The notes beneath the pieces are model-generated. The model did not search any database. It saw only the letters and a list, made by a program, of their open reading frames with translations, and was not told the DNA's origin. A stretch of DNA of 50,293 nucleotides, taken from positions 1 through 50,293 of the IMG/VR virus record IMGVR_UViG_3300028044_000972; one strand, written 5' to 3'. This DNA is from a virus. This document shows positions 1 to 44,348 of the stretch, in pieces. Each line of letters begins with the position of its first letter. The stretch's first letter is position 1. A program made the translations under genes and the position numbers.

Positions 1-3000
1 CTCCAACCGCTTCTATTTGTGCAAAAGATTGCGTTGTTACACCTTTTTTGCCCATTGCCTTTGATGCATACAAAAGTTCCAAATATGCAGTTCTTCCGCT
101 TCCTTTTTTAAAAGATTGGCTCCATTGAATAAACGGATAAGTTTCGGCGTTTTGCAAAGCAAAACCGCCATTTTTAGTTTCAAAAATATCCATGTAGTCC
201 GAAGAATCTCGGCCGCCATAATTTTTTGATTTGTTTTCTTTCCACAAAGACTTCGGATCTTTCGACACTCTTGGGTCAGGTTTTGCTAAATCGTCCACGC
301 CGCCGAGGTAGCCTTGGTTCTCCTCGTACTCGCGGAGCAGGCGGTCGGTGTCGAGGGTGCGCACGGGGGCCACCTCCGGCATCGCCTGCCCGCGGGTGCG
401 GCCTGTTGCTGCACCTTGCGGAGGTCTCGCCGCCGACACAAAGATGTCGTCAGGATTGTCCACCAGCCACAGCTTCTTGCCGTCAATGTCCATCGTCTTC
501 GGGTTGCGCAGATACGCCTCGACGACCACCGGGTTGGCTGGCTCGTTGACCTGCTTGGCGGCGTCACGCAGGCGAGCGGCGAGATCCTTGGGGGTGCGCT
601 TGGCGAGGTCATTGAAGTAGCTGGCCAGTTCGTCCATGTCGTCCACATAGCGCACGTTGAACTCTGGCAGTTCGCTGACATCAGCAAACTCGCGCAGCTT
701 TAGGCCAGCCTCCATGCGGGCGCCAAGGTCGCGCATCACGTCATTGGCGCTGTCCACGGCAGCCTGCGCCGAGTCGATGGGCGCGGCAGCATAGCCGTCT
801 GCGGAGGCGACATCGTCACTGAAAGAAAAGCCGCCGCGGGAAATGCCCGAGCTGCGGGCGCGATACTTGGGGTCGAACTTGCGTCCCTTGAAGTCGGGCG
901 AGCCGTGGTAGACCGGGCCGACCAGCCCTCTGCGGCGCGCTTCGTCTGGCGTGATGGTGATGTCCGGCATAGCCTGTCCACGCACCTCCGGCATCGCCAT
1001 GCCAGCCTGCGGGAGGGCGCTGGGCATGCGGTTGTTGTTGATTTTGTCGTAGTCGAAGAAGTAGCCGGTGCGGCCGGTCGGCTTGGCATCGTTGAGCCGG
1101 TCCACGCGCCAAGCACGGATGCTGCCGCGCGGGTTGAGGTCCGAGTACAGCGGGTTGGCTGTGCGCTGCACTGCGGTGCCGGTGCCGATGAGGCCGTTGA
1201 GCATGTCCCGCTTCTGCTGTCCGATGGTCATCTCGCCGGGCCTGCCGTTGCGGTGGTTGGCGAGGTAGGTCTTGAGGTCGGCCTCCACCTGCCGCATGTC
1301 GTTGTTGAAGAGCCCGAGGTCGCCCTTGTTGATCGCCTTCATGGCGGACGCGCGGAAGGCGTTGAGGTCAAGCGAGGCGGCGAGCAGGTGGTTGGCCTTG
1401 GTCACCTGCCAGCCAAACGGCACGGTCTCGCGCTGGATGGCGCGCACGTTGCCCAGGTTGGTTACGCGGTAGCGTCCCGAGGCTCCGGTGCCGATGGCGT
1501 TGTAGTCGATGTCCCAGCTGCCGCCCTCGGCGCGGCTTTGCTCCATGGAGCGGGCAAACTCGCGGACGTGCTTGGGGAAGTTGGTGAAGAAGTCGAACTG
1601 CGGCGGCAGCACCGGCCCTCCGACCACCTCGCGGCCGTTGACCTTGCGTTTGCCGAACTCCTGCGAGTTGACCGGGACAAACTTGCGCGCATCGTAGAGC
1701 GTCTTGATCTGCGCGCTGCGGGCGTTCTCGGTGAGGTTGACCGTCTCCTGCGCCTTCATGGTGTAGGTGCCGTCTGGGCGTTGAACCATGAAGTCGTTCT
1801 CCAGGACTCCGTTGCCCTCATCGCGCAGCTTCACATGCGTGCTGCGGGCCAAGTCCTCCGGCTTGCTGCTGCGGGCCAGCTCCACGCCGCGCAGCTCCTT
1901 AGCCCCGGCTTCCTCGAGGCCGGCGAGGTACTGGTCGTAACTACGCACGTACTCACGCACCCGCTTCTGCATGATGCGGTCTTGGAAAAGAGGATTGTCG
2001 CGGAAAAGCACCGAGGGGCTGTCCATTAGCTTGCCGGTGCCCGGGTCAAGGCGAGCGCCCATGACCTCCAGAACGCGCCCGCCGGCCGACAGCATGGACT
2101 CGGCGAGGCGGGGGAACAGTGCGTCACGGCGGACGGCGCGGAAGTCGATGGCCGGAGCCTCGGAGGCGAACGTCTCGGCGATGATCTCGTCGCGTGCCCA
2201 GTCCAGCGCGTCCTCGCCCTTTTCGATGCTGCGCTGGGAAAGCTCTTCGACACGCTGGTCAATAAGACGCTGCCGCGCCTGCTCAGAAACCGGCTGACCC
2301 TTCAGCACGTCCGCCAGCGTTGTCTTGCCGCTGGATACGTCATTGATCTGCGCCTCAGTCAAGTTGACCGGGGCGTCCTCGATGGCGCCGACCAGGATGT
2401 CATTGTCCACCAACCGCGTTGCATATTCCCTGCCGCGCGCCGCCACACCGTCCGTTGCATACTGCTGGTTGACTAGGTTTCGCAGGTCATTGCGCGGCTG
2501 ACCACCGAGGATGTCGCTAGTTAGGATGGCGTGGCCGATTTCGTGCGGGACAATGCGCGTGGGCGACAAGTCCTGCGCCAGTCGTTGGTTTGCCGACACC
2601 GTGTCTCCCGCCTTGACCAGCAGCCGGATGCCCTGTGGCACATGCGTTGAGTCCACCGTGCCGTCCGCCGCGGTGATGTCGATTACGTTGCCGCCCTTGT
2701 CCGCGTCCGGCCTTACAGACACCTTGCCGTCCACCGGAGCCGTGTGCCCCATGTTGACAAAGATCCTCGCCGATCCGTTTGCGTCCTTTTCGATGTAAAG
2801 GCCCGCCGCCGTCTCGCCGCCCTCCGCGCGAAGGTCGGTGTTGGCCCGGTAGTCCTGGCCGCGGAGCGGGATAAATTTGACCTTGTTGCGCAGCACGCCC
2901 TGCATGGCCGCCAACCGCGAGAGGCTGTCGTGCGAAAGGGACATGAGGGACGCCGCGTCGCCATTGCTTTCAGTCACATCGACCAGCATTCTGGCGATGT

Positions 3001-4720
3001 CGGCGTCCACTTCAGCCGGCCGCCTACCAAAAGCCCTTGTCGCCGTCCCCGCCAGCGTGCCCAGCATCACGGCGCCGCCCACAATCTGACCGCCCTGCTC
3101 GGCATCGGGAGCCACCAAGGCAAATGGAGCCGCCGTAAGCCCGGAGACCACAGCGGAACTGACAGCGTCATCCGCTAGCCGAAACGCCTGCGTTGCGCCC
3201 AAGTTGTTTGCCGTGCGCGACAGCCGGCGCAGCATCTGCGGATTCTCGGGGTCTTGCGCTACGCGCCGCAGGGTGCTGTCAGCAGACGCTCCGCCGGGCC
3301 GCATATGGCGGGCGTAACGCTGGGGGAAGGCACCACTGCCGGCCATCGCTTGCGCGGTTTCAGCGCCCGCAGCACCCGCACCACCGGCGCCCATCTCGCG
3401 CACGATGGCGTAGCCACCGCCTGCCGTTGCGCCAGTGCGCCTCAAGATCGCCCCGCCAAATTTCATGATGGGCAGGATCGAAAGCACGCCCGTGGCCACG
3501 CCGCCCAATGCCGCCGGCGCGCCTTGGCCCTGAGTGCTCAAATAGCCCACGCCACCCGTCAGGGCAGTCGCGGCCGCCGTCTGCTGCATCGCGTTCATTC
3601 CCGTCAAATCCTGCACCCTGTCCGTGATCCGCATCGCGCTACGCTGTAATGCGTCGGCGCCCGCATTGGCCACCTCCCCAGTCATCTTGAGCGGCACGCC
3701 CGTGATCGACGACAGGCGGCGCAAGATACGCACCTTGGATAGTGCGCCCGCACCGACCGGCAGCAAGTTGTCAGGAGCCAAAGCCATCGACCCTCCGGTC
3801 GCCAAAGCGCGCTGCGGCTCCATCACCTCGCCGGTGATCGGATTAGTCGCCCGCGCCTCACTGCTCTCCTGCGTCACCGGCGTCTGGCCGATGCTAAAAT
3901 TTCCTACGCCCGCAATTTCACGGTCAAAGTTCTTGCCGCGGCGGTAGTCTTCAAACGCCTGTTTGACATCGGCGTTCTCCTCCAGCGGAGTCGGCGCCGT
4001 CTCGCCGCGTTCTTTAGCTGCGGCAAACTCGCGATTGATGATCTCGATGTCTCCGCGCAGGTCGCCCGACAGCTTTCCCTCGGCCTGCAGCTTTTGGGCG
4101 ATGACGCTGCGCACCTGCTCCTGACGGCGAACGTCTGTGGCGTGATCGCGCGCCGTGTTGCCGATCCAGTCAACGAGTTTGGCGAACTCAAGGCCCGCCT
4201 TGCGGCCCGCCTCTTTGAGTGTGACGAAGTTCTGCGTAGCAAAGCGGTCTGGCCGATAGAAGTTTGAAGTGGCGTTGTCCTTCAGCTCTTGGCCCATCTC
4301 TGCAGTCAAAGACACCAGCCCTTGGCCAGCCGCCACCGCCCCATCCACAAAGCTGCCCACCGTATTCTTCTCCTGCTGCCTGCGCGCATGCACTGGAGCA
4401 AACTCCTCGAAAGGCATCTCGTAGGATGGATCGTAATAAAGGTTGTCATCCTGCGCATTCAGCTCCGCATCTGTCAGCGGCTTGGGCGGCTCTCGGAAGT
4501 CTGCCTGCGGAGGCTGCGGCGCCGACTGTGGCATAGTCTTCTGGCCGAAAGGCGTGGCCTGCATGAGACTGTCTGACGTGGCGCGTTGATCCATCTGCGC
4601 GTCTGTCATCGGCACAGCGGCCGGCGACTCAAGCACTCTAGCGGCAGTTCCGTAAAGATTCTGCCGCGCCTCCATCTCGTCCATTGCGTCGAGCTGGGCG
4701 TCTGTTAAGCCTTTTGCCAT
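1..4720 (-). CDS. Giant polyvalent protein 1, C-terminus cut by window edge
   Basis: Reads open for at least 1573 residues from ATG at 4720 to the left edge. The N-terminal ~370 residues are polar and helical. Residues ~380-420 are hydrophobic, Gly/Ala-rich possible membrane segments. HEIGH at 726-730 is a zincin metallopeptidase motif. A linker RGQAMPD (1247-1253) precedes a domain beginning GPVYHGS (His1272) with GGFSFSDD and VEAYLRNP further on, the pattern of the ADP-ribosyltransferase domain of polyvalent proteins. A second linker RGQAMPE (1443-1449) follows, then an AT-rich unknown domain (from ~1470 on). Polyvalent proteins of this type are thought to enter the host with phage DNA. It ends the late operon after two small virion-type genes, 3 nt after the stop of the preceding one. 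The start is clear; the functions are family inference. Confidence 0.85.
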   Translation of the reverse strand, partial: MAKGLTDAQLDAMDEMEARQNLYGTAARVLESPAAVPMTDAQMDQRATSDSLMQATPFGQKTMPQSAPQPPQADFREPPKPLTDAELNAQDDNLYYDPSYEMPFEEFAPVHARRQQEKNTVGSFVDGAVAAGQGLVSLTAEMGQELKDNATSNFYRPDRFATQNFVTLKEAGRKAGLEFAKLVDWIGNTARDHATDVRRQEQVRSVIAQKLQAEGKLSGDLRGDIEIINREFAAAKERGETAPTPLEENADVKQAFEDYRRGKNFDREIAGVGNFSIGQTPVTQESSEARATNPITGEVMEPQRALATGGSMALAPDNLLPVGAGALSKVRILRRLSSITGVPLKMTGEVANAGADALQRSAMRITDRVQDLTGMNAMQQTAAATALTGGVGYLSTQGQGAPAALGGVATGVLSILPIMKFGGAILRRTGATAGGGYAIVREMGAGGAGAAGAETAQAMAGSGAFPQRYARHMRPGGASADSTLRRVAQDPENPQMLRRLSRTANNLGATQAFRLADDAVSSAVVSGLTAAPFALVAPDAEQGGQIVGGAVMLGTLAGTATRAFGRRPAEVDADIARMLVDVTESNGDAASLMSLSHDSLSRLAAMQGVLRNKVKFIPLRGQDYRANTDLRAEGGETAAGLYIEKDANGSARIFVNMGHTAPVDGKVSVRPDADKGGNVIDITAADGTVDSTHVPQGIRLLVKAGDTVSANQRLAQDLSPTRIVPHEIGHAILTSDILGGQPRNDLRNLVNQQYATDGVAARGREYATRLVDNDILVGAIEDAPVNLTEAQINDVSSGKTTLADVLKGQPVSEQARQRLIDQRVEELSQRSIEKGEDALDWARDEIIAETFASEAPAIDFRAVRRDALFPRLAESMLSAGGRVLEVMGARLDPGTGKLMDSPSVLFRDNPLFQDRIMQKRVREYVRSYDQYLAGLEEAGAKELRGVELARSSKPEDLARSTHVKLRDEGNGVLENDFMVQRPDGTYTMKAQETVNLTENARSAQIKTLYDARKFVPVNSQEFGKRKVNGREVVGGPVLPPQFDFFTNFPKHVREFARSMEQSRAEGGSWDIDYNAIGTGASGRYRVTNLGNVRAIQRETVPFGWQVTKANHLLAASLDLNAFRASAMKAINKGDLGLFNNDMRQVEADLKTYLANHRNGRPGEMTIGQQKRDMLNGLIGTGTAVQRTANPLYSDLNPRGSIRAWRVDRLNDAKPTGRTGYFFDYDKINNNRMPSALPQAGMAMPEVRGQAMPDITITPDEARRRGLVGPVYHGSPDFKGRKFDPKYRARSSGISRGGFSFSDDVASADGYAAAPIDSAQAAVDSANDVMRDLGARMEAGLKLREFADVSELPEFNVRYVDDMDELASYFNDLAKRTPKDLAARLRDAAKQVNEPANPVVVEAYLRNPKTMDIDGKKLWLVDNPDDIFVSAARPPQGAATGRTRGQAMPEVAPVRTLDTDRLLREYEENQGYLGGVDDLAKPDPRVSKDPKSLWKENKSKNYGGRDSSDYMDIFETKNGGFALQNAETYPFIQWSQSFKKGSGRTAYLELLYASKAMGKKGVTTQSFAQIEAVG

Positions 4721-6186: not shown

Positions 6187-6485
6187 AATGTTATTTCTTT
6201 CTGTTGTGTGATTCCTGCCGCTTGTCGCGCCTCAAGGCACAGCGCTGATCCCGGCACAAACGCGCGGCAGGCATTCGGTCGGTTGTTGTAAATTGAGCAG
6301 CCCACATCGCAGCCGACCCCGCCGGTCAGTGCCACGCATCTGCTGTTGGTTGTCTTCATCAGTGGGTAGTCATCTCGCAGCATCCATTGCGGGATGCCAG
6401 CAGCGTCAGATCGGTCTCGTCGCAGGACAGGCCAGGACCACTTGTGAGAGCAGCAGGCGCCGCATCGTTGGCAGTCGTATTCCAT
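6183..6485 (-). CDS. YkgJ-type cysteine-cluster protein
   Basis: 100 residues. The N-terminus has CQRCGACC (5-12). Later come CDVGCSIYNNRPNACRAF and a GSALC, the usual spacing of YkgJ/UPF0153 zinc- or iron-chelating proteins. The start is fixed because the first cysteine is residue 5. The first 127 nt overlap the 3' end of the upstream sulfotransfer-type gene in another frame. The pair is missing from the equivalent place in the second tail module, so it looks like cargo. It may supply or hold a metal cluster for its partner; that is inference. Confidence 0.8.
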   Translation of the reverse strand: MEYDCQRCGACCSHKWSWPVLRRDRSDAAGIPQWMLRDDYPLMKTTNSRCVALTGGVGCDVGCSIYNNRPNACRAFVPGSALCLEARQAAGITQQKEITL

Positions 6486-7315
6486 ATTGGTTTGAAGCCC
6501 AGGTCGGGGAAGACCATGTCTTCATAGGGCGCGTGATGACTTACGTTGCTGACGGTAGCCGCCAACTTTGGACAATGAACGTGCCGCCCTTGGTGCCGGT
6601 CCACGCAGTTGAAGCAGATGGGGTAAAAGTCAGCGTTGAGCGATTTGTCGGGATTGTTGCCCCAGCTGCCTTCGCGTTTTACATACCGCGTCGGATCAGC
6701 CGCCACTCCTTCGGTCTCCAAATATTCAAACACGTCCTCATCAGACCAGTCTCTGATTGGGTAAAGGCTGGCCGGCATTCCGTCCACGCAGCGAATATCC
6801 ATTGCCAGCGGGATCTCGCCCTTGATGAGATCGGTGTCGCCGCCCTTGGTTCCGACAAACATTGCAGACCATGGAAAGTCAAACGTGCCGGTTGGCCGGC
6901 TGAGAAAGTCCTTGACGGCACAAAGGTATTTCCCGCTTTCTAGCTCAGACTCAGTGGGGCGCTCGGTGCCCAAGGTGAGGACCGTGGCGGCGCTTCCACA
7001 CTGGTAGTATTTCAGCATGTCAAAGCGGACTTCTCCCGTTTCAACATCCGGGCCGTCCGCTATGGCAACCCTGGAGGGCGCGTAGTCATAAACCTCCAAG
7101 CCCCACTGCTTGATAAGCTCGTCGCTGTATGCGTAGCGCTCGCGGAATTTTGGCTCGCGGTATTGTATGACCGGCAAATCAATACCTGCCTTAAATTTGA
7201 GAACGTGCAGAAGCGCTGTTGAATCTTTTCCGCCACTCCACAAAACGGCAGAGTTTGGCCACCGTGCATGCCAAGCGCGCATCTTTTCTGCCGTCTTTAA
7301 GACAAGGTTTTTCAT
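6359..7315 (-). CDS. PAPS reductase / adenine-nucleotide hydrolase family protein
   Basis: 318 residues. SGGKDS at 27-32 is the PP-loop that binds ATP or PAPS in CysH, CysD and DndC-like enzymes. IRDWSDEDVFEYL near 190 is the family's usual downstream motif. A cysteine patch CFNC...HVHC near 240-255 could bind iron-sulfur or zinc; the classic CysH ECGLH end is absent. Possible roles are sulfate or phosphosulfate chemistry, or sulfur modification of nucleic acid. Its start overlaps the previous stop (TAATG), and its last ~42 codons share DNA with the cysteine-cluster gene. It is embedded in virion genes rather than replication genes. Confidence 0.8.
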   Translation of the reverse strand: MKNLVLKTAEKMRAWHARWPNSAVLWSGGKDSTALLHVLKFKAGIDLPVIQYREPKFRERYAYSDELIKQWGLEVYDYAPSRVAIADGPDVETGEVRFDMLKYYQCGSAATVLTLGTERPTESELESGKYLCAVKDFLSRPTGTFDFPWSAMFVGTKGGDTDLIKGEIPLAMDIRCVDGMPASLYPIRDWSDEDVFEYLETEGVAADPTRYVKREGSWGNNPDKSLNADFYPICFNCVDRHQGRHVHCPKLAATVSNVSHHAPYEDMVFPDLGFKPIWNTTANDAAPAALTSGPGLSCDETDLTLLASRNGCCEMTTH

Positions 7316-11652: not shown

Positions 11653-11656
11653 ATAA

Positions 11657-12244
11657 TTAGTTCAGTGCTGCTTTAAGTTTGCTGCGAAATAGTTCCGCAT
11701 CCCCCGGCGAGATGTCGGTCTTCCGGGTCGGGCTGACCTGCTGGTGGGTCACAACCATGTTCATCGGGATGCCCCACTTGCGCATGCGCGGAGCCAGCCA
11801 TTCGATGGCGCTGGCCATGGCGTCATCGCCGAGCGGGTAGTCATAAGTGTTGCCCTCCCAAGCGAGCCCGAGGCTCCATGAGTTAAGGTCTTGCCGGCCG
11901 AACCAGTTGCTCTTTCCGGCGTGCCAGGCGCGGTCGGCGTCTTGGCAGAACACCGTGCGGCGGCCGTCGCGGGCGATGAGGACGTGGTAGGACACCTTAG
12001 ATGCCGGGCTGGCGATCCACTCGCAGCCTCCCCGGTAGCTGCCGTCGCTGTGGTGCAGGACTACTGCCTCCGGCTTGATCGCCTGGTTGCCCTTGTTCGG
12101 CGTGAAGACTTTCCGCTCGTCGAAGCTCGTCAGCGGCGGCGCGACGGTGAAGCTCGTTGTGGATGCGGATGCAGAGTTCGGCGAGGCCGGCGCTGGGGTA
12201 ACGCCGGACTTGCTGCCAAATAGTCTCTTGATCCACGTCCACAT
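11657..12244 (-). CDS. N-acetylmuramoyl-L-alanine amidase (endolysin)
   Basis: 195 residues, Amidase_2 (T7 lysozyme/AmpD) type. Residues 1-55 are a Ser/Pro/Thr-rich lead. The zinc-site pattern is visible: LHHSDG, THQQVSPTRKTDISPG with the second His and the Asp/Cys-position Asp. It cuts the bond between muramic acid and L-alanine in peptidoglycan. It follows two small membrane proteins and a lipoprotein, so it belongs to the lysis cassette. The middle of the gene is identical at DNA level to the partial amidase at the right window edge, while the 3' end has diverged. Confidence 0.9.
   Translation of the reverse strand: MWTWIKRLFGSKSGVTPAPASPNSASASTTSFTVAPPLTSFDERKVFTPNKGNQAIKPEAVVLHHSDGSYRGGCEWIASPASKVSYHVLIARDGRRTVFCQDADRAWHAGKSNWFGRQDLNSWSLGLAWEGNTYDYPLGDDAMASAIEWLAPRMRKWGIPMNMVVTHQQVSPTRKTDISPGDAELFRSKLKAALN
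11829..11936. repeat. 108-bp segment identical to the right window end
   Basis: Identical to 50186-50293, inside both amidase genes and in the same orientation. The base just to the left of each copy differs. Confidence 0.9.
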
Positions 12245-12247
12245 TGC

Positions 12248-12388
12248 TTACTTTTTGTAACCTTTGTTCGGGTCAACCGTTACCGTGGCCTGCTGCTTGA
12301 GGAAGTCGTAGCCGACCGTCACGCAGCCGGGGAGCAGCAGGTAGGCCGCGAAGACCAAAGCGGCGGCGATGAACTTAGCCGCGAGCAT
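12248..12388 (-). CDS. Small lysis-cassette lipoprotein, possible outer spanin
   Basis: 46 residues, below the usual ORF cut-off. A hydrophobic signal (AAALVFAAYLLLPGC) ends in a lipobox LLPGC with the Cys near residue 24. About 22 residues would remain after processing, ending in KGYKK. Its place between two membrane proteins and the amidase fits an outer-membrane spanin partner or a small lysis regulator. No matching inner spanin is recognised. Confidence 0.55.
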   Translation of the reverse strand: MLAAKFIAAALVFAAYLLLPGCVTVGYDFLKQQATVTVDPNKGYKK

Positions 12389-12548
12389 TGTTGTCCTTGG
12401 CCATGACCAAGCCCCAGGCGGCGGCGAGCGAGGCGGCGATCAGGCCGATGTCGGGCAGCGAGCCGGTGGAGAGAAATTCTTTGGCGCCGGTGGCCAATGC
12501 GATGAGCCCCGTGAGGACGCCGAGTGTAGTAGTTTTCCAGTTGTTCAT
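12375..12548 (-). CDS. Small membrane protein, candidate holin
   Basis: 57 residues from ATG at 12548, with AGGAG about 13 nt upstream. Two hydrophobic stretches are visible (TLGVLTGLIALATG and LIAASLAAAWGLVMA) around a short Gly/Ser turn, the layout of a two-helix holin. It overlaps the lipoprotein start by 14 nt. Together with the 68-residue gene before it, it could be the holin or holin/antiholin pair for the amidase. Confidence 0.6.
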   Translation of the reverse strand: MNNWKTTTLGVLTGLIALATGAKEFLSTGSLPDIGLIAASLAAAWGLVMAKDNNARG

Positions 12549-12552
12549 AATG

Positions 12553-12759
12553 TTATTTGTTCTCCTTCTGTTTTTTCCGCAGGTCATGGTAGACCGAAAG
12601 TAATGTGATCACGCCGACAGCGAGGCCGACGCATAGCCCGGCAACGCGTAAGTATAGTTCGACATGGGCGACCATAGAAACCGCCGCCGAGCCGAGGCTG
12701 GCAAACGTGCCGAGGGCGCCGCGCTCGACGGTCGTTAAATGTTGGTGCCAGTAGTTCAT
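12553..12759 (-). CDS. Small membrane protein in lysis cassette
   Basis: 68 residues starting MNYWHQHLTTVERGALG. An amphipathic N-terminus is followed by two hydrophobic segments (FASLGSAAVSMVAHVELYL and VAGLCVGLAVGVITLLSVY) and a basic tail KKQKENK. This could be a holin or an inner-membrane partner of the candidate holin downstream. ATG at 12759 overlaps the stop of the previous gene; longer in-frame upstream reading is Arg-rich and implausible. Confidence 0.6.
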   Translation of the reverse strand: MNYWHQHLTTVERGALGTFASLGSAAVSMVAHVELYLRVAGLCVGLAVGVITLLSVYHDLRKKQKENK

Positions 12760-13142
12760 GGCATTGCGTCTATTGCGGTCCATGCCGCCAAGAGGCCGTC
12801 CCGCAGTTCGGTGGGCAGGCTCTCGCTGGAATAAACCACGGAGCGCGACCCGGCGGCGGCGTGCGCGGTCACGGCGGCGGAGAGTTTGGGGCGGCTTGAA
12901 GTCACAGATTGTGATTCGTTGCCGTCGGCGTCCACCTGCGTCTCGTAATCCGAGTGCGTGCCGTCTGGTTCCAAAAACACTTGGCCGACTGACTCGCCTT
13001 CGGTGAGTTGCGATTGCAGCCATGACAGAAGGGTCTGCGCGGTGAGGGCCAGTTCGCCGTCAAGCGGGATGGCGGTGGTGGTGGCGTAGTCGCCGCTTTT
13101 GCTGTAGCGGGTTAGCTGGTTGTTGGAGAGTAGGAGTTTCAT
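12756..13142 (-). CDS. Hypothetical protein between fiber and lysis genes
   Basis: 128 residues beginning MKLLLSNNQLTRYSKSGDY. Mixed polar composition, with DADGNESQSVTSSRP in the middle and a helical end. No signal peptide, membrane segment or known motif. It overlaps the secreted fiber stop and the next start by 4 nt each, so it is co-translated with them. It may be a minor tail part. Function not recognised. Confidence 0.55.
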   Translation of the reverse strand: MKLLLSNNQLTRYSKSGDYATTTAIPLDGELALTAQTLLSWLQSQLTEGESVGQVFLEPDGTHSDYETQVDADGNESQSVTSSRPKLSAAVTAHAAAGSRSVVYSSESLPTELRDGLLAAWTAIDAMP

Positions 13143-14302
13143 GGGGCAAAAAACACGGCATTATTTAGTCCGACAATTTCAAAACTTCCGCCAGTGTTGG
13201 TGGAGAGGCCGACTAGTCCAAACGTAAAGCAGGTTTGGTTTGTCGAAGCAACCATAGGGCCGTTGCTATATGTGACAGTGGCGTTTGTTGGTTTCTGTAA
13301 GGCCGCGCTAGTTGCGGAATTTCTTTCGGCATAATAAATGTCGCCCGTCCCGTTGGTTTTGTGGTCAATCCACAAACCGAAGCCTAATGGCGATGCCGAA
13401 GTGGTAATTGTGGCGGCGTTGGTTGTGACTACATTTGCCTTGGAAACTAGAACTTCAGCGTTGGTGGCATCAACCCAGTTAAGAGCAACCCAATGGCCAT
13501 TGGTGGGCAGATCGTTGTCGCCTGCGCCAGCGCCAAAAACCAAAAAAGCGCGCGCAACGTTGTTGGTTACTTGGTTCTTGGCGCCCATAACAGCTAAACT
13601 CATTGGGCGAGACCAATCTATACCAAAGGTTCCCTCCGTTCCGTTCCACGGCCCTTGCCTGTTGACTCTGACCGAGGCAAAGCTGTTGGTGCTTCCATTT
13701 ACAATCCTCACATTGATTCGACCTTCGGTAATGGGGCCAGCGTGGACAGCGGTTCCGGGGCCGCTTATATGCGAGGCCATAGCGTATGCCAAATCTCTAA
13801 ACCGATTCGGCGCGTGCATAATGTAGTCAACCATGCGCGTGTCGGTTAAATCCCGCGTCATCAAACTGTCCGCACTGATCGCCGTCTGATGCGGTGCGAT
13901 GTTGCCCACGCCGTTTAGGGTGGCGTTGCCGTTTATGGTGACGTTGGTGGCGAAGGTGGCGGCGTTACTGACTCCGAGGGTTCCGGTGGCCGTGATGTTG
14001 CCGAATGTGACGGCGTTGGTTGTGCCGAGGCCGAGGTTGGTGCGGGTGGTGGCGGCGGCATTGCCAGAAAACAGAATACTTCCCTCATCCACAAAAACCG
14101 TGCCAGCATCCACTTGGACAAACTGAACGTGATTCCACTCCCCAAGGCCGATCGCCGTAGCAGCCGCCGCAGCATTGGTCGCCGTGAGCACCGCACGCCC
14201 GGTCGCCGTGGCGTCCGTGATATTGACCGAGGTCGGCGGGTTGTCGATCTGGCCGTAGGCGGTGCCGGCGGCCAGCAGTAGGATGGTGAGCAGGCGGTTC
14301 AT
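13139..14302 (-). CDS. Fiber-like protein with Sec signal peptide
   Basis: 387 residues from ATG at 14302. The first ~17 residues (MNRLLTILLLAAGTAYG) are a clear Sec signal ending AYG|Q. Next come Ala/Thr-rich fiber repeats (TRTNLGLGTTNAVTFGN and TATGTLGVSNAATFATN), the kind that form beta-spiral shafts in phage fibers. The C-terminal ~230 residues are a beta-rich globular part, possibly a lectin-like head. Virion proteins are normally cytoplasmic, so the signal is odd: it may be exported to the cell surface, or the signal may be a relic of acquisition from a host surface protein. Confidence 0.7.
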   Translation of the reverse strand: MNRLLTILLLAAGTAYGQIDNPPTSVNITDATATGRAVLTATNAAAAATAIGLGEWNHVQFVQVDAGTVFVDEGSILFSGNAAATTRTNLGLGTTNAVTFGNITATGTLGVSNAATFATNVTINGNATLNGVGNIAPHQTAISADSLMTRDLTDTRMVDYIMHAPNRFRDLAYAMASHISGPGTAVHAGPITEGRINVRIVNGSTNSFASVRVNRQGPWNGTEGTFGIDWSRPMSLAVMGAKNQVTNNVARAFLVFGAGAGDNDLPTNGHWVALNWVDATNAEVLVSKANVVTTNAATITTSASPLGFGLWIDHKTNGTGDIYYAERNSATSAALQKPTNATVTYSNGPMVASTNQTCFTFGLVGLSTNTGGSFEIVGLNNAVFFAP

Positions 14303-25779: not shown

Positions 25780-26321
25780 TCGCAGCTGTGGATGTCGCGT
25801 TGGCGGCGGATGCCGGTGGGCCATTCGGGGGTGGTGAAGCTGGTGTCGGCGAAGAGGACGTAGTCGGTGGGCTGGATCGTGAGGCGGCCGTTGTCCAGGG
25901 CGATGAAGGTGAATTCTTTGTTCTGACTCGGCTCGGCGCTGAAGCCGTCGTCGGCCGGGGCGACGCTGAAGAGGTAGTCGCCGTTGCATTCCTTAAGGTC
26001 GCTCAGGCGGGCGATGACCCGTTGGCTGTCGAGATACGGGTAGGCGTTGGCGCTCCATTTCCAGCCGTAGCAGTCCCAGCGTTGGGCGTCGTAGATGGTC
26101 CAGAATTCGGCGGGCTCGGGGTCGAAGGCCAGGGCGTGCGGCGGGAGATTGCGGTAGCAGGCGCCGCACTCGAGGACGACGGTGCAGCCCCAGGCGCGGC
26201 CGGGCCAGCTGGCCAGTGCAAACCAGACGGCGGGGATGAAACCGCGGGGTTCTTTGTAAATGAAGGCGCTGTCGACCCAAAGGTAGCGATGGCGCGGGAG
26301 GGGTCCGGTGAAGGAGTTCAT
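25776..26321 (-). CDS. Hypothetical protein between glycosyltransferase and terminase
   Basis: 181 residues from ATG at 26321. Rich in aromatic residues (YGWKWSANAYPYLD; FWTIYDAQRWDCYG), with WPGRAWGCTVVLECGACYRN near residue 45. Beta-rich, no membrane segment or known catalytic motif. It lies 7 nt after the glycosyltransferase gene and its stop overlaps the terminase start. It may be a partner of the glycosyltransferases (for example a carbohydrate-binding or acceptor protein); that is only positional inference. Confidence 0.55.
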   Translation of the reverse strand: MNSFTGPLPRHRYLWVDSAFIYKEPRGFIPAVWFALASWPGRAWGCTVVLECGACYRNLPPHALAFDPEPAEFWTIYDAQRWDCYGWKWSANAYPYLDSQRVIARLSDLKECNGDYLFSVAPADDGFSAEPSQNKEFTFIALDNGRLTIQPTDYVLFADTSFTTPEWPTGIRRQRDIHSCE

Positions 26322-26328
26322 AAAGTTC

Positions 26329-37340: not shown

Positions 37341-40300
37341 CTAAAATCTCCGGTTGAGATACTCCGCGGCCACCTGGTCCGGCGAGCCCTGCGGGATTTG
37401 CTTGAGCAGCTCGAGCGCCTTCTCCAGCTCCGCGATCTGCCCGCGGTTGCCGATGAGCAGACTTTGCGCGTAGCGAGTCTGCACCGTCCGCATGTTCCGC
37501 TCATTGGCGAAATCCCGTTTTAGCGAATAATACTTCGCCACCCCCTGCATGCCCGAGAGCACGCCCATCCCTTTGCGCAGATCCTCCATGTAAGCCAGCT
37601 GCACCTGCAGATGCCGCAGCTGATCACTGCCCAGGTCCTCCGCGGGAAACTCCGGATCGCGCAGCATATTCCAACCCTTCGCCTTCAGCCGCTCATCGAG
37701 CAGCCGCAGCCGGTCCTCCACCGCCGTCACCGACCGCACCGCCTGGCTGCCGAAACCGATCGGATCGCGGACAAACAACCGCCCCACGAACGGCACATCC
37801 GCCATCTCCATCATCGGCCGGCCCCGGTCGATCGACTCCGCCAGGCGCAGCGTCTCATCCGCCTGACGCGAGAGCGCCTGTTGCACGATATATTGCAACT
37901 TCGCTGGCGAGTAATTCATCATCGTCCCCACCTTCCGGTAAAACTCCGGCGTTGTGCTGTAGTATTGCTCACTCGCCGGCAGCTGCACCATCCACGGCGC
38001 CACGATATGCTTCTGGCGAAACGTCGACCAATTCATGTTCGCCTCCATGATCGTCGCCAGCTGCGGGCCGAAGAACTGCAGCCCGCTCCCCGGGTCCACG
38101 ATCCGTTTCAGCAGCATGCCCGCCGTCCGGTCCGCGTCCACCTTCGGCCGCCCCAGGAGATCATCCATCGTCGCATTATAAACCACCGAGCCCATCACGC
38201 CCTCCGGCCCGTAGGGAAACGGCACCGAGAACCCCGCCAGATCCATGAACGACAGCCGATCATCCACCACCCGTTGACGTTCCCGCTCCTTCTCCTCCTC
38301 ATCCATCATGAGGTAGCGAGCGATCGCCGCCCCGCCGAACATCACCGGTATCATCACCAAGAGCCGCGTCCACGCCGTCCCCCGCACCGCCGGGTCCGGA
38401 TCGGAAAGTTTTTGTGCCACATTGCGCACGCCCTGCAGCATCGGATTGAGGAACCCCGGGATGCTCATGGCAATTTTCGCATCGGCAATCCCCGAGTGCT
38501 CATTGAACTGCCCGCTCGCCGTCCAATACTTCGCCAGCGCCTCCTCATCCGTCGCCCCCCGCTGCAGCGCCGCCACCGCCGCACCCTCACGGCCGGCCGT
38601 CTCGAAGAACGCCGCCATCGCCCGCCCACCCGTCACCAGGTTGATCAAATCCCCCGTCTTCCAGATCGGAAACAACCAATTACTCGGCTGCAGCACCGTC
38701 GCCACCGTCTTGATCACCGGGTCCTTCGCCTGGCTCACATAGAAACCCTCACTCAACCACTGCCAGATCGCCCCGTGCTTGATCGAGGCCAGCATCTCCT
38801 GCTCGCTCGGCTGCACCCGCGAAAGCAGCAAACCCTCCGAGAACACCTGCGGATACTTCTTCGTAAATTTATTGACCACGCCCTTCGTATGCGCCCAGCC
38901 CGGCACCCAGCCGATCGGGTCCGGATTGAGCAACGTCTGCGTGAACGTATCGCGGAACAAATTCCTCAACGCAAAGACCGCACCCTGCGTGATGTTCCGC
39001 TTCCAATTCTGCGTCATCGGCCCCACCAGCCAGGACGCCGCCTTACCCATCTTCGACGCCGTCTGCGGAGAAGCAAAGAGCCCGAAGATCGCCGGATCAC
39101 CCAGCTGGTAATACTCCCGCACCCCATCCCGCAGCAGCGACACCACATTCACGTCCGTCGGTTTCACCGGCCGCCACACATCACGGAAGCTCCAGGAGAG
39201 ATTCACGTCCTCCGCCTTCACCTCCGGCCGGAAGCCCAGCACCTTCTCATAGGCATCCCCGATCGACTTCATCACCCAGCCCAGCGCCTCCTCCTTCGAG
39301 ACCGACGCCGCCGCCTTCATCGGCATCTTCATCTTCACCATCGTCGAGCCCGCCAAGATCCGAGCCTCCGCCGGCAGCGACAAGTCCTTCGCCACCGCCG
39401 CCATATTGTCATAGAGTTTCAACCCGAAGCGATTCCAGTAGTAAGCCTCGAACATCTCCCGCGTCCGCTCCTCCGTCACCTCATCGATATTCCGGATCGC
39501 CTCCCCCGAGCCCCGCGCCCGATAGACCCCCGCCGACATATCGCCCCGCCCGCGGCCCGCCGCGCCGCGGCCCGCCGTCATCACCCGCGGCAGCGGCCAA
39601 TAGCCAGGCCTCGCCCCCTGCATCCGCGCCCGGTCCATCCCCGAGATCAGCCCGCCCGCCTCCTTCACCTCCAGGATAAGGTCATGGAAGCGCGACTGCT
39701 CCTTATACATCCGCGTAAAATTTGGAATATCCTGCACCGCCATCGCCACGATCGCCTTCAAGTCCTCCGGCAAGATCCCCTCCCGCATCCCCGGATATTC
39801 GAGGCCCCCATTCTCCCACCGGTTCAGCGACTCCTGCGCCCACGCCGCCTGGTCAAACTGCGCCAACTTCGACGCCGGCACCTTCTTCCGCAAGTCCGTC
39901 CAGGACTCGCCCGTCAGGTAGCGAAAACTCCCATCCTTCTCCACAATGCGCAACCCCTTCGACGTCCCCGTCCCACTGATCGCCAGCTGCGTCTCCGCCC
40001 CGATCGAGAGGATCATGTTGTAAGCCGACATCAACGGCGTCAGATTCGTCGACCGCACCAGCCGCGCCTTAGTCAGCGCCGCCTTGTAAGCCGTCTCCGT
40101 CTCCTTCCGCTGCTTGATGATCGCCCGCGTGATCTTCCGATCCAGCGACGACACCGGCGCCCCCGAAGCGATCGCATTCACCGCCGCCTCGCCCCCGCGG
40201 ATGATCGCCCCGATCAACTCATTGGCCGAAGGCCGCACATTCGGCGGCGCGTTAAACATCGCCCACCGCGTCGCCACATCCTGCCCCTGGAAAGCATTCA

Positions 40301-43300
40301 CCGCCCGCGCCGCATCCCGCAAGAGCTTCGCCATGCCCGGATAAAACCGCTCCGCCGCCGCCGAGATCGCCGCCGACACCTGCAGATTCTGCACCGTCGC
40401 CGGGTCCGTCAGCAGCAGCCGCGTCCACTCCGCCACGCCCTCACCCCTCCGGTAGCTACGCTGACCCTCCGGCGAGAGCGACGCCGGCGGATCACTCGCC
40501 ATGCTGCCCGGCCGATTCGTCAGCGCGATCAGCTCCGCCGCGTGCGGCACGAAGACATCCGGCAACCGTGCCCGCAGCAAATATTCCAACCCATGCCCCG
40601 CCTCATGGAAATTGATCTGGCTCTGCGTCTCCCGCGTGTAAGCCACATGATTCGCCGGCTTATAGTGCGCCGGATGCGTCCGCGACGTCTGCGTCGTCGA
40701 CCGCCGCATCTCCAAGCGCACCGCCTCATTGACGAAGTCCACGATCGACCGGAACCCCCAGCGTTGTCCTGGTCGGAAATTCTCCACCCCCTTGATCAGC
40801 CGGCGCCCCGCCGAAGTCTCCCCCCGAGCCAGCACCCAATCCGGAGTCTGGAGCGCCGCCATCCCCACCGGAATCGCCCCCGGCGGCACCTGCGCCCCCC
40901 CACCCGACCGCACCGTAGCCGGCGGCGTCAACGGATCACTCGACACCGACCCCGGCGGCTCCATCGCCCTCGAGCTCACCGCATACGGAGCATCCGGCAT
41001 CGCCTGCCCGCGGGTTTGCCTGTTGACATCTTTTGGCTGCGTGGTAGCTTGACTTTGGTTTGATCTAACCGCCGCAAGGCGTGAAGCCACCGCTTCGAGA
41101 GGCCCGACGGAAACGTCGGGCTTCTGTATTTTAGGGCGAGGCAGCGATACCCCAATGCGCCCTTCAATGTCTGCCAAAACGCGATCCGGCGCTTGTAGCC
41201 AATCTCCGCGCTTATTTGGCGTCACAAAGTCTTGAATTGCCGCCGTGCTTTTAGAGAAGGCTGATACGTCGGCATGGTCGCTTATTCTCACCGAAACTGA
41301 TGCCTGCTCAACAACTCCAGCATCATCGTCCAAGTCCCAAGCAAAATTGCTGGTGTCACGCTTGTCCTGCACACCGGCATCGTAAAGCCGCTTGCCAAGC
41401 GCTGGCTCGAAATCAATCACAACGTCCATATACATGGAGTTGCTTTTGCTACTGCCCTTGATTCTGGAAAAACTTACACCCGCCACTCCATCTTGACCGC
41501 GCAGCGTTTTTGCGCGCGAAAGACTGTCCCGCATTGCGTCTCGTTCTATCTCGGGCCGAGCGGCGTCTGCCACTTCTGCGCCAACTTCAAGCAATCCTTC
41601 TGCTGCATCTTGCGCCGTGCTATAGGGTCCAAGCTCTCGCTCGCCGGCATCTACGAAATACGTTCCCTTGTTTGTATCAAGCGACACATTTAAGTCTGGC
41701 GTCAAGCGCCAGCTGCGGATGGCTCCATCGGATTCCGTGGGCTCCCCAAAAATTTGCTCTGGTACATCCGGCATTCCCCGAGATCCTGCCACAGGACCAT
41801 CCGGCATCGCCCCCGGCGGCACCTGCGTCCCCCCACCCGACCGCACCGTAGCCGGCGGCGCAAGGGTCAAGTCCGGCCGCTCCTCCACCCGTGGCGCCGG
41901 CGTTGTAGCCGCGGCAGTCTCTGCCGCGCCAGGCATTTGTGGCCGTGCCCCCCGCATCTCCAGCGGCACATCCTCCATGCTTTGCGTCGCCATGCCGAAA
42001 ATTTCCCGCCCCGACCGCAACCGATTACCCAGCAGCTCGATCAGGTCCGCCTCCGTCTCCACCCGGAAGCCCTTCGCCTTCAGCGCCATGGCCATCTCAT
42101 CGAGATCCATGCCATCCCGGCGGAAGAGCTTATTGATAAAGACCCCCTTCTGGTTATCGCCCCCCTTGCCCTTGCCCGCGCCCTTTGCCTCCTCATAGAG
42201 CGCCTTCAGCTCGCCCGACCACACCGCCCGCTTCGCCCCCGACTTCGGCGCCGGCAGTCCGCCCAGGTCGATCACCGCCGCCAGCAACTCCTCCGCACCC
42301 GCGTCCGCCATACTCTCCCGATAGTCCGCATCCTGCCCGCCCAGGTATTCCTCATAATCCCGCAGCGTCTGCGCATTCAGCGTCGCCGTCCCCGTCGCCG
42401 GGTCCAGGTCATAGAACGGCACCGACAAATCATAAACCTGGAACGCCTTCACCGACACCGGCTCCCCCGCATCGATCGCCGACTTCACGATCTGCAAATG
42501 CTCCGAGAGCAGCGCATTCCAGTTATCCGTCTCCGTCTCCTCCAGGTCGATCCCCCGCTCATTCGCCGTATCCAGCGCCCAATTAAAAGGCTCCGCCATC
42601 GCCGCCGAGACCGCCCGCGGCACCGCCACGGCCGCCGAGGCCGCCGGCCCCGGCATCGGAATCGTCACCGTCCCCGAAGGCAGGACATTGACCGGCGCCG
42701 TCCGCGGCACCGAAACATCCGCCGCCGCCGCTTTCCCGGGCGCTGGCAAAGCCTGTGGCACGTCCGCCTTGGCCCGAGCCACTGCACCCGCCGGCAGCAT
42801 CACCGGCACGCGGTAGGGCACGCGAGCCGCCGCACGGCCCACCGAAGGCACGAGGCCCGCCACCGAAGTCGTCGGCACCTCCACCTCGAGCGGACCCGTC
42901 CGCACCCCGCCCGCCGTATCCATCCGGGCAATGGCCGCCGAGATCGGCGGCTGCGCCTCCCAGACCAGCTTCGTCTCCGCCGCCGTCAGCGGCGTGCCCG
43001 CCTTCATCTTCGCCGCCACCGCCGCCACATCCTTCGCCCTGGCCATCCGGTTGTTGAGGAAAAATCCACCCGTCAAAGCACCCACGCCCGCCGCCGCGGC
43101 AAATCCCCCCGGCGTGATCTCCTGGCCCCGCACCGCCGCATCGATCGGATAAGCCACCACACCCGTCCCGGCGCCCAGCCCAGCCGCCGTCCCCGCCGTC
43201 CGAGCCACCTGCGGCAACCCGCCATCCTGGAAAGCCGTCCGCAATCCCCGGGCGCCCTGCGCCACCGAGACCGGCAGCGCCAGCGCCACCATCCCCATCT

Positions 43301-44348
43301 CGCCCCCCGCCTTGTGCATCGGAAACAACTCCGCCGCCTTCATCACATCGTCGTATTCCGTAAAATGTTCGCCCAGCTTCTTGTAGATCGCGTCGTAGCC
43401 CACGCCCGCCGCAATGCCGCCGCCGATCGCGCCCGCCACCCCGCCCACCACCGCCGCCGCCGGTGCAAAGGGAGCACCCGCGACCGTCGCCAAGGCCGCC
43501 GCTGACGCACCCGCCGCCAAGAGCTTCGCTCCCCCGGCCGCGCCCACCGTCATCGCCCCGCCGCGGCCGGCGCCCTGCAAGATCGCCAAGAGCCGAGGGT
43601 CCGCCTGCGCCTTCTCCTCCAGCTTCCGCCGGTCATCCATCACCTTGAAAATTTTCGCCTCGTCCGCCTTGATCTTCTCATAGTTCGACCGCGGCAAGAT
43701 CCCCGCGGCAAACGCCTCCTCGACACCCTGGGTAAATCGCTCCGGCGACGACTGATCAAAGACAATCTGCCCACCCTCCGAAGGCACCAGCCGCGGCCGC
43801 CGATTCAGCACCGGCTCAGCTACCCCGGGCGCCGCCGCCATCGGTCCCCGCGGCGCCACCGGCGCCATCCCATCGAGCCCCTGCTCCGGTCCCGAGGTCG
43901 GGTCCACGACGAGCGACCCCGTAAATTGAAACGCCGGTCCCTTCGCATCGAAAGTCACATCCGTCCCATCCGCCGCCTCCGGCGTCGTCACCGGCTTCGG
44001 AGTCGGCCGCGGCGCCGGCAGCTTAATCTCCGGCGCCCGTTGCTCCGCCCCCTGGAGAAAGGCCAACGCCTCCTCATCCGATCCGAACCCCGGCCCGCTT
44101 GTCTGCTCCGCCTCCAAGGTAGGGCGCGGCGTCTGCGGCAAATCCTCATCCTCCTGCGGCAGCCGCGGTTCCCCCCGCGCATCGAGGTCATTGAGGAAGG
44201 CGGCATCCGCCGCTTGGACCAGCCGATCCGGCCCCGGGTCCATCTCCACCGGAGGTTCCGGTGCAATATCCAACTGCGGGTCCGCCACCGGACCCCCGTA
44301 GAGAAAGTCCAGCGCCTGCTGGTCAGATTGGAATGCGGCGAGGGCCAT
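37341..44348 (-). CDS. Giant polyvalent protein 2 (zincin, LPD38-like)
   Basis: 2335 residues. Residues ~260-330 and ~390-430 are Ala/Gly-rich hydrophobic. A Pro/Ala-rich linker at ~830-861 (RSGGGTQVPPGA, then MPD) precedes a ~250-residue lower-GC domain (862-1112, starting VPEQIFGEP) closed by RGQAMPD (1113-1119) and a second RSGGGAQVPPGA copy. HEAGH at 1248-1252 is a zincin motif. The C-terminal half resembles large polyvalent-protein domain 38, with RNLFRDTFTQ near 1790. Similar proteins are thought to be ejected with phage DNA. It is a homologue in position, not in full sequence, of giant protein 1. Confidence 0.85.
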   Translation of the reverse strand: MALAAFQSDQQALDFLYGGPVADPQLDIAPEPPVEMDPGPDRLVQAADAAFLNDLDARGEPRLPQEDEDLPQTPRPTLEAEQTSGPGFGSDEEALAFLQGAEQRAPEIKLPAPRPTPKPVTTPEAADGTDVTFDAKGPAFQFTGSLVVDPTSGPEQGLDGMAPVAPRGPMAAAPGVAEPVLNRRPRLVPSEGGQIVFDQSSPERFTQGVEEAFAAGILPRSNYEKIKADEAKIFKVMDDRRKLEEKAQADPRLLAILQGAGRGGAMTVGAAGGAKLLAAGASAAALATVAGAPFAPAAAVVGGVAGAIGGGIAAGVGYDAIYKKLGEHFTEYDDVMKAAELFPMHKAGGEMGMVALALPVSVAQGARGLRTAFQDGGLPQVARTAGTAAGLGAGTGVVAYPIDAAVRGQEITPGGFAAAAGVGALTGGFFLNNRMARAKDVAAVAAKMKAGTPLTAAETKLVWEAQPPISAAIARMDTAGGVRTGPLEVEVPTTSVAGLVPSVGRAAARVPYRVPVMLPAGAVARAKADVPQALPAPGKAAAADVSVPRTAPVNVLPSGTVTIPMPGPAASAAVAVPRAVSAAMAEPFNWALDTANERGIDLEETETDNWNALLSEHLQIVKSAIDAGEPVSVKAFQVYDLSVPFYDLDPATGTATLNAQTLRDYEEYLGGQDADYRESMADAGAEELLAAVIDLGGLPAPKSGAKRAVWSGELKALYEEAKGAGKGKGGDNQKGVFINKLFRRDGMDLDEMAMALKAKGFRVETEADLIELLGNRLRSGREIFGMATQSMEDVPLEMRGARPQMPGAAETAAATTPAPRVEERPDLTLAPPATVRSGGGTQVPPGAMPDGPVAGSRGMPDVPEQIFGEPTESDGAIRSWRLTPDLNVSLDTNKGTYFVDAGERELGPYSTAQDAAEGLLEVGAEVADAARPEIERDAMRDSLSRAKTLRGQDGVAGVSFSRIKGSSKSNSMYMDVVIDFEPALGKRLYDAGVQDKRDTSNFAWDLDDDAGVVEQASVSVRISDHADVSAFSKSTAAIQDFVTPNKRGDWLQAPDRVLADIEGRIGVSLPRPKIQKPDVSVGPLEAVASRLAAVRSNQSQATTQPKDVNRQTRGQAMPDAPYAVSSRAMEPPGSVSSDPLTPPATVRSGGGAQVPPGAIPVGMAALQTPDWVLARGETSAGRRLIKGVENFRPGQRWGFRSIVDFVNEAVRLEMRRSTTQTSRTHPAHYKPANHVAYTRETQSQINFHEAGHGLEYLLRARLPDVFVPHAAELIALTNRPGSMASDPPASLSPEGQRSYRRGEGVAEWTRLLLTDPATVQNLQVSAAISAAAERFYPGMAKLLRDAARAVNAFQGQDVATRWAMFNAPPNVRPSANELIGAIIRGGEAAVNAIASGAPVSSLDRKITRAIIKQRKETETAYKAALTKARLVRSTNLTPLMSAYNMILSIGAETQLAISGTGTSKGLRIVEKDGSFRYLTGESWTDLRKKVPASKLAQFDQAAWAQESLNRWENGGLEYPGMREGILPEDLKAIVAMAVQDIPNFTRMYKEQSRFHDLILEVKEAGGLISGMDRARMQGARPGYWPLPRVMTAGRGAAGRGRGDMSAGVYRARGSGEAIRNIDEVTEERTREMFEAYYWNRFGLKLYDNMAAVAKDLSLPAEARILAGSTMVKMKMPMKAAASVSKEEALGWVMKSIGDAYEKVLGFRPEVKAEDVNLSWSFRDVWRPVKPTDVNVVSLLRDGVREYYQLGDPAIFGLFASPQTASKMGKAASWLVGPMTQNWKRNITQGAVFALRNLFRDTFTQTLLNPDPIGWVPGWAHTKGVVNKFTKKYPQVFSEGLLLSRVQPSEQEMLASIKHGAIWQWLSEGFYVSQAKDPVIKTVATVLQPSNWLFPIWKTGDLINLVTGGRAMAAFFETAGREGAAVAALQRGATDEEALAKYWTASGQFNEHSGIADAKIAMSIPGFLNPMLQGVRNVAQKLSDPDPAVRGTAWTRLLVMIPVMFGGAAIARYLMMDEEEKERERQRVVDDRLSFMDLAGFSVPFPYGPEGVMGSVVYNATMDDLLGRPKVDADRTAGMLLKRIVDPGSGLQFFGPQLATIMEANMNWSTFRQKHIVAPWMVQLPASEQYYSTTPEFYRKVGTMMNYSPAKLQYIVQQALSRQADETLRLAESIDRGRPMMEMADVPFVGRLFVRDPIGFGSQAVRSVTAVEDRLRLLDERLKAKGWNMLRDPEFPAEDLGSDQLRHLQVQLAYMEDLRKGMGVLSGMQGVAKYYSLKRDFANERNMRTVQTRYAQSLLIGNRGQIAELEKALELLKQIPQGSPDQVAAEYLNRRF
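40873..40927. repeat. 55-bp in-gene direct repeat, copy 1
   Basis: Differs from 41806-41860 at one base. Encodes PPATVRSGGGAQVPPGA on the minus strand. Together they bracket a lower-GC 878-bp section of giant protein 2. Confidence 0.9.
41806..41860. repeat. 55-bp in-gene direct repeat, copy 2
   Basis: Encodes PPATVRSGGGTQVPPGA. Partner of 40873-40927. Confidence 0.9.

Follow-up and report, generated by a model that had tools for sequence, protein, structure and literature searches.

Very large multidomain proteins of phages and conjugative elements have been described as polyvalent proteins (Iyer et al. 2017, PMC5512222). In that study a zincin-like metallopeptidase was proposed to process the polypeptide, ADP-ribosyltransferases (ARTs) were the commonest protein-modifying domain, LPD38 was a phage-type polyvalent domain, and RadC was listed as restricted to the polyvalent proteins of conjugative elements. 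Recombinational cassettes were raised there merely as a possibility, for one kinase locus, and the word "linker" does not occur. In CdiA, precise cleavage after VENN frees the toxin, and VENN is both the exchange point and the cleavage site (PMC9424206). Domain shuffling and mosaicism have been described for phage proteins (Smug et al. 2023, PMC10684548), and mosaics are reported to come mainly from homology-driven exchange over short or diverged homology, on which Rad52-like phage recombinases act in E. coli phages (De Paepe et al. 2014, PMC3945230). The classic modular theory of phage evolution invokes hypothetical conserved linkers between modules.

The window, the DNA analysed here, covers the 50,293 nt (50.3 kb) of virus record IMGVR_UViG_3300028044_000972 (IMG/VR) and comes from a group of uncultured relatives of short-tailed phages. 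Its SU10-like products are the major capsid protein (141 bits) and, as a weak match, the portal; it also has tail and fibre genes, an endolysin, a DnaB-type helicase and two giant proteins, GP1 and GP2. PAPS-reductase-like, ferredoxin-like and family 2 glycosyltransferase genes, either metabolic or for host takeover, lie at 6359-7315 and 25776-27090. The last 100 bases of the window (50194-50293) are repeated exactly at 11836, and the related contig L252 extends beyond the end of the window, where it carries a second version (1.5 kb, 91% identity) of 11656-13147, the endolysin region; the lysis block is duplicated, and assembly probably stopped at the duplication. The features on which this report rests are as follows.

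2..4720, minus strand: GP1, giant polyvalent-type protein (open reading frame; 1573 residues within the window)
1007..4720, minus strand: GP1 conserved backbone, residues 1-1238, present in all homologs (24-90% identity in backbone alignment A1)
2531..2545, minus strand: HEIGH zincin-like metallopeptidase motif, residues 726-730, conserved in A1
986..1006, minus strand: first linker-like joint, AGMAMPE, at the backbone end, where homology to L123/L143 stops
962..982, minus strand: linker 1, RGQAMPD, residues 1247-1253
395..961, minus strand: cassette C5, 189 residues (1254-1442), predicted ADP-ribosyltransferase-like domain
374..394, minus strand: linker 2, RGQAMPE, residues 1443-1449
302..358, minus strand: relic of spacer cassette C1 (LDTDRLLREYEENQGYLG), 68% identical to spacer residues 4-22
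2..300, minus strand: terminal cassette C44, start only, AT-rich (35-43% GC), continuing beyond the window
35985-37139: tyrosine integrase
37341..44348, minus strand: GP2, giant protein of 2335 residues with an LPD38 domain (Pfam, 47.4 bits against a cut-off of 27)
41013..41765, minus strand: exchangeable cassette of GP2 (residues 862-1112); L254 carries a replacement and L253 lacks it
40992..41012, minus strand: GP2 linker RGQAMPD, residues 1113-1119, closing the cassette

The original prediction had RGQAMPD and RGQAMPE enclosing a segment of 189 residues in GP1 and a further RGQAMPD closing a different cassette in GP2, and both claims held. The start of the window cuts GP1 short; the protein's full length of 1,652 residues is seen in L122/L142, whose GP1 is 100% identical to that of the window over the common part. 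Searches of IMG/VR with alignment A1 returned 80 loci and searches with the spacer 30 more, which after merging gave 82 non-redundant GP1 homologs. Each consisted of a conserved backbone of ~1,230 residues with the zincin motif, followed by a hypervariable tail of tandem cassettes, for total lengths of 1,040-2,420 residues. With its start set 12 residues before the mapped backbone end, the tail ranged from 21 to 1,284 residues. The GP1s of L187, L189 and L215 end almost at once after the backbone and are almost without a tail, and the tail is therefore dispensable or fully replaceable.

Residues H726, E727, E845 and E849 were invariant in alignment A1 and H730 nearly so, the pattern of a zincin (HEXXH plus a downstream Glu) and of the polyvalent-protein metallopeptidases in PMC5512222; the profile match of the backbone to zinc endoproteases was weak (E 0.29), and a search of the window protein found no Pfam peptidase above cut-off. 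A match to Apocytochrome F in the backbone (27.2 bits) fell below the family cut-off and was dismissed. The adjoining gene upstream of GP1 matches phrog_2534, annotated "released from the phage upon host infection" (E 3e-20), and it is because of this context that a virion or ejection role is inferred for GP1. This neighbour, together with the capsid, tail and fibre genes in the window, satisfies the polyvalent criterion of being encoded beside virion genes. Comparison of the backbone profile with solved ejection proteins gave no sequence match. No GP1 relative was found among the cultured phages of INPHARED (tblastn; P0001, spacer C1, cassette C5 and cassette C44 as queries). In GTDB species genomes 364 prokaryotic stretches fit the linker pattern and none was confirmed as a GP1 relative; therefore, no host was assigned.

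Most cassettes in the GP1 tails had no Pfam match. Those that did included a DNA C5-methylase in C40 (82 bits), for which tblastn against INPHARED returned only generic methyltransferases at 28% identity, DUF7178 in C11, C30 and C42, and ART-PolyVal (PF18760), which cleared its cut-off of 31.2 bits in C31 (45.9 bits) and C34 (47.0 bits) and stayed below it in C13 and C24. By their length, their tandem cassettes and the C5-methylase and ART-PolyVal matches, the GP1 relatives thus meet the polyvalent criterion of very large size combined with several different effector or enzymatic domains. The GP1 of the window, including C5, had no Pfam match, and membership of C5 in ART-PolyVal was not met, with the closely related copy in L020 scoring 13.6 against the required 31.2 bits.

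The ADP-ribosyltransferase-like label in the original prediction was thus a guess from sequence without Pfam support, and what supports it, moderately, is predicted structure. An AlphaFold2 model of C5 built from 13 sequences that included diverged ART-like cassettes reached a pLDDT of 79.5; a first model, from seven near-identical sequences, was discarded (pLDDT 37.3). The top VIA-align row for the retained model was a chain of the cyanophage A4 pre-ejectosome (PDB 9k3a; Z 6.3, 89 residues, rmsd 2.5), and other rows were KptA/Tpt1 (Z 6.1 and 5.8), exotoxin A domain III (5.4), the RCD1 PARP (5.1) and pertussis toxin (4.8). ART-superfamily structures made up five of the top seven rows, and no single Z was decisive. 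Foldseek against the PDB gave no E below 0.44 for this model, and ART-fold entries surfaced only with VIA; against BFVD it gave one clear match, to an uncharacterised phage protein (E 1e-7), and several weak matches annotated as ART-PolyVal-like. A YHGSPDF motif with H19, the candidate for the NAD-binding histidine of the ART fold, was invariant across the C5 copies, and when C5 was compared by hhalign with the remaining ART-like cassettes, the YHGS motif region alone was aligned (probability 38). C5 thus models, with moderate confidence, as an ADP-ribosyltransferase-like fold; the fold is a prediction, and any catalysis would be putative.

Cutting the tails at linkers yielded 156 segments, which grouped into 57 families at 60% mutual coverage, 25 of them with more than one member; this clustering superseded an earlier one that had chained multidomain segments. 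The 66 GP1s with a complete tail showed 54 cassette orders, and 65 distinct cassette-cassette adjacencies were counted. The number of orders is approximate, as families depend on the clustering threshold and some large segments are multidomain. The decoupling of cassette identity from backbone identity does not depend on that count. Backbone identity reached 80% or more in 155 pairs, of which just seven had the same cassette order and 103 had no family in common. Conversely, cassettes 97-100% identical were found on backbones only 22-25% identical, as for C14 (cassette 99.6%, backbone 21.6%), C8 (100% and 23.3%), C3 (97.2% and 23.4%) and C13 (97.2% and 22.1%). C5 itself occurs in seven GP1s (the window and six others), with three kinds of left neighbour (backbone, C1 and C12) and six kinds on its right (C1, C8, C53, C15, C44 and the protein end), although C53 is probably the same family as C8, split by clustering. 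Between pairs whose backbones were less than 60% identical, DNA at 90% identity or more amounted to 70.9 kb in the tails versus 3.0 kb in the longer backbones. DNA downstream of GP1 is also common to divergent phages, and the mosaicism is not confined to the GP1 tail.

No orphan or silent cassettes outside GP1-type genes were found in the loci examined. Elsewhere, cassettes matched only the tails of partly covered GP1s, a pair of distant giant proteins and, in L249, a single short spacer-like stretch. In L002 (10857-12137) and L113 (2123-3391), distant homologs of C6 and C14 (29-32% identity) form the C-termini of other phage proteins, and both end in ..QDQQQNS[IL]NSFIQ.

At the DNA level, the 20-mer TCCGGCATCGCCTGCCCGCG is present exactly at 375-394 and 40993-41012, that is, in GP1 linker 2 and the GP2 linker, and GP1 linker 1 (963-982) differs from it at 3 of 20 positions. 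Exact identity of linker DNA therefore unites GP1 linker 2 and the GP2 linker, not the two linkers of GP1. When up to three mismatches were allowed, TCCGGCATCGCCTGCCCGCG had three sites in the window, compared with 0.05 expected from dinucleotide shuffles. Across the family, tails totalling 50,386 residues contained 81 copies of the pattern [RKQ][GA]QxMP[DE] (0.04 expected when the tails were shuffled), and backbones totalling 86,495 residues contained none; the looser xMP[DE] occurred 197 times in tails versus nine in backbones (8.6 expected in shuffled tails).

The consensus DNA of the joint is CGTGGGCAGGCGATGCCGGAT (RGQAMPD), 21 bp in frame. With one example per family (17 left and 25 right), positions 0-20 were highly conserved and both flanks were near background. 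The codons used are unusual: CGT encodes the arginine in 77% of RGQAMP[DE] linkers versus 8% of Arg codons overall, and GGG the glycine in 90% versus 8% of Gly codons overall. Taking one linker from each left family, GGG was present in 15 of 17 (binomial P 7e-15), with the caveat that the left families are not fully independent of one another. In a second phage clade the joint takes a form peculiar to that clade, xGQAMPD, written GGC CAA GCC ATG CCG GAT, in which the uncommon CCG appears at a frequency of 0.74 against a usage of 0.19. Linker DNA is thus common to unrelated cassettes beyond what codon usage predicts.

Two linker sequence types, RGQ and RAQ, precede C1, and three linkers, all upstream of C1, are chimeric, with an RGQ-type 5' part and an RAQ-type 3' part (patterns 1112222 and 1111122). 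A crossover within the joint is the simpler explanation of these chimeras, although a single one could arise by mutation. The linker is not invariant: variants differ at up to seven positions, the peptide core MP[DE] is retained where the DNA differs (RAQFMPD, EAQGMPD, KPAPMPD and DVRFMPD), and the GP1 lineages of L169, L184, L186, L190 and L202 have no MPD linker and yet change their tails. The heptapeptide RGQAMP[DE] alone, for which a search was originally proposed, was ruled out as a diagnostic marker because many of the 118 pattern matches in IMG/VR were unrelated or due to chance. One group of these pattern matches is a family with a fixed context, ..KQRRAMAARGQAMPDGSFPIA... A phage protein family separate from GP1 (L012, L021, L027, L047, L049 and similar loci) has [RS]GQAMPD in the fixed context ..KQRR[AL]MA[AN]RGQAMPDGSFPIA.., a case of convergence on the same heptapeptide.

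Of 32 comparisons in which the same cassette had different neighbours (C1 and C2 excluded), 26 showed homology ending 0-24 nt from the edge of the cassette and hence in the linker, and the three largest distances were artefacts of family splitting. This test is not fully independent, as the segments had been cut at linkers. In a blastn comparison in which linkers were not used for placing the ends, 38% of homology ends fell in a linker +/-6 nt versus 4.9% at random positions, and 63% fell within 30 nt of a linker versus 11.6%; the remaining ~37% lay farther away, many of them within large cassettes that are themselves mosaic. In 9 of 11 pairs with near-identical backbones, homology stopped within about two codons of an xMPD joint (..QGMPD|, ..QAMP|D or ..RGQAMPD|), the two exceptions being lineages without MPD joints. 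On the other side of the exchanged DNA homology returned at the next joint, at most 12 nt from the GP1 stop codon, or further downstream. Between the window and the 90%-identical L123/L143, DNA homology ended at the first joint, AGMAMPE, and returned ~40 nt past the GP1 stop. The limits of DNA homology are thus a linker or, where the whole tail has been exchanged, the stop codon.

The spacer C1 is a cassette of 73 residues (219 bp) with 22 intact copies in other GP1s, where it has 10 kinds of neighbour on the left and 15 on the right. Its copies are 93% identical in nucleotides regardless of backbone identity (rho -0.07), and it looks like an in-frame module that is mobile and that offers 219 bp of homology as an anchor. 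A spacer-like stretch, 66-70% identical, is also present at L249 5992-6213, in a locus without a recognised GP1. In the window only the first part of C1 is left (302-358), followed by AT-rich sequence. This is C44, which has 35-43% GC inside a gene of ~65% GC (L142 11390-11860 corresponds to window 2-300). C44 had no Pfam or INPHARED match, and PADLOC gave weak matches only; based on its GC profile and the absence of Pfam and INPHARED matches, C44 was apparently acquired recently. It ends in ..TRGQAHGQGGVL, which could perhaps be a damaged linker.

In GP2, homology to L254 broke at residue 851 and returned at 1118, inside RGQAMPD, and homology to L253 broke at 802 and returned at 1131. The cassette site holds a different, RadC-like segment in L254 (read from the sequence, without a profile) and almost nothing in L253. 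The linker of GP2 thus also closes an exchanged cassette, although no more than three relatives exist and the heptapeptide is kept in neither variant. A ~50-nt repeat encoding PPATVRSGGG[TA]QVPPGA at residues ~831-850 and 1142-1160 flanks the exchanged cassette, and this repeat, which is GP2's own, is a possible second joint.

The modular array, the identity of joint DNA, the breakpoints at joints, the sharing of cassettes across divergent backbones and the chimeric joints were all observed directly. The proposal that effector domains are swapped by recombination at conserved linker DNA is supported by these data: many different cassettes between the same linkers, the result named beforehand as its test, were found (57 families and 65 adjacencies), the linker is not unique and the domains are not always co-inherited. 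We consider it likely that GP1 is a polyvalent phage effector protein whose variety arises through recombination at an in-frame joint of 21 bp, and that it is probably ejected, with ejection and effector function both inferred. GP1 would be packaged in the virion and ejected, its N-terminal backbone with the zincin motif being, by inference, part of the ejection apparatus and carrying a C-terminal array of exchangeable effector cassettes. Co-infecting phages or prophages would cross over inside the joint, exchanging a single cassette or the whole tail with the frame intact, and C1 would serve the same role as a longer anchor. Such frame-preserving exchange is possible because the joint is nearly identical between unrelated cassettes. 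The crossover is inferred to occur by homologous recombination with an unidentified host or phage recombinase rather than by a dedicated enzyme; the agent remains unidentified because no recombinase of a recognised family, including Rad52-like ones, was found for this role among the window ORFs scanned. Against this reading, 21 bp is short for recombination. More speculatively, the backbone metallopeptidase may cut at [AFG]MPD to release each effector, making the joint a site of both recombination and processing.

The strongest rival explanation is that the linker is kept for its peptide, as a flexible hinge or protease site, and that illegitimate recombination occurs anywhere, with selection for frame and domain integrity placing the breakpoints. 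It is favoured by the MP[DE] core being kept where the DNA differs and by lineages without the linker also swapping tails, although a constraint on the peptide is also compatible with recombination at the joint. We consider this rival unlikely, as the rare codons are consistent across unrelated cassettes, breakpoints fall inside the 21 bp and not loosely around domains, and chimeric linkers exist. Movement of cassettes by a dedicated site-specific recombinase, either in the manner of a shufflon or by a phage integrase using the linker, would suit mobile units flanked by direct repeats of a fixed sequence, and the window does encode a tyrosine integrase. However, that integrase lies at a distance from GP1, neither silent nor inverted cassettes turned up elsewhere in the loci examined, linker variants differ at up to seven positions, and the differing switch points of the chimeric linkers fit homologous crossover better than a single fixed cleavage position; this explanation is accordingly very unlikely.

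An assembly artefact, in which different phages were joined at repeats, had to be considered since all of the relatives come from metagenome contigs, both the linker and C1 are repeated sequences, and a repeat also marks the end of the window. This possibility is highly improbable: certain architectures are each present in at least two contigs (L127/L128 and L130/L131), and no joint interrupts the reading frame over 1,600-2,400 residues. A 21-bp linker is also far below typical read length, and assemblers would not break or join there. Beyond recombination at the joint, which remains our preferred reading, a bolder one can be framed, in which a large group of uncultured phages would share one pool of injected effector cassettes, kept exchangeable by a 21-bp in-frame joint that is under selection and acts as both recombination site and cleavage site for the protein's own metallopeptidase, with the 219-bp spacer as a dedicated recombination hub. 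The joint would then be to phages what the VENN junction is to CdiA, and it would serve a row of several effectors. The balance of the present evidence tips slightly against this version, and we offer it only tentatively.

Compared with the described systems, GP1 and GP2 resemble the polyvalent proteins of phages and conjugative elements in being giant, multidomain and near virion genes, in the putative zincin motif of GP1 and in the LPD38 domain of GP2. They depart from the published account in the fixed 21-bp joint and extensive cassette exchange of the GP1 family, and in the RadC-like segment that fills the GP2 cassette of L254 despite the reported restriction of RadC to conjugative elements. 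GP1 meets the criterion for CdiA-CT/Rhs proteins of a conserved N-terminal part with C-terminal effectors exchangeable at a short conserved junction. It differs from them in having several tandem cassettes, not one, and in the lack of orphan cassettes in the loci examined. An immunity gene, a feature of CDI/Rhs systems, is not expected for GP1 if its target is the infected host, delivery in the virion being inferred. The comparison with polymorphic toxins made in the original prediction thus stands as an analogy only, no silent cassettes having been found in the loci examined. Unlike a shufflon, GP1 has no inverted silent cassettes in the loci examined and no adjacent recombinase. A likeness to phage ejection (pilot) proteins is suggested by the ejectosome chain as best structural match of the C5 model and by the phrog_2534 neighbour. 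The studies of phage mosaicism cited above (PMC10684548, PMC3945230) do not describe a joint like that of the GP1 family, conserved inside a gene and recurring between domains that are unrelated; the former lacks the words "linker", "polyvalent" and "ejection", and the latter lacks "linker".

The string "RGQAMP" was absent from the open-access literature searched. The kind of protein is known, and within that literature conserved DNA of this sort, joining exchangeable effector cassettes of phages, is apparently undescribed. The GP1 family provides a concrete case of an intragenic linker, with evidence at the nucleotide level, and ties the ejection and polyvalent proteins of phages to the logic of polymorphic toxins. 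The joint also offers a handle for mining phage effectors, as anything between two joints is a candidate. In the biology of these viruses, the joint appears to be the point at which they trade effector parts.
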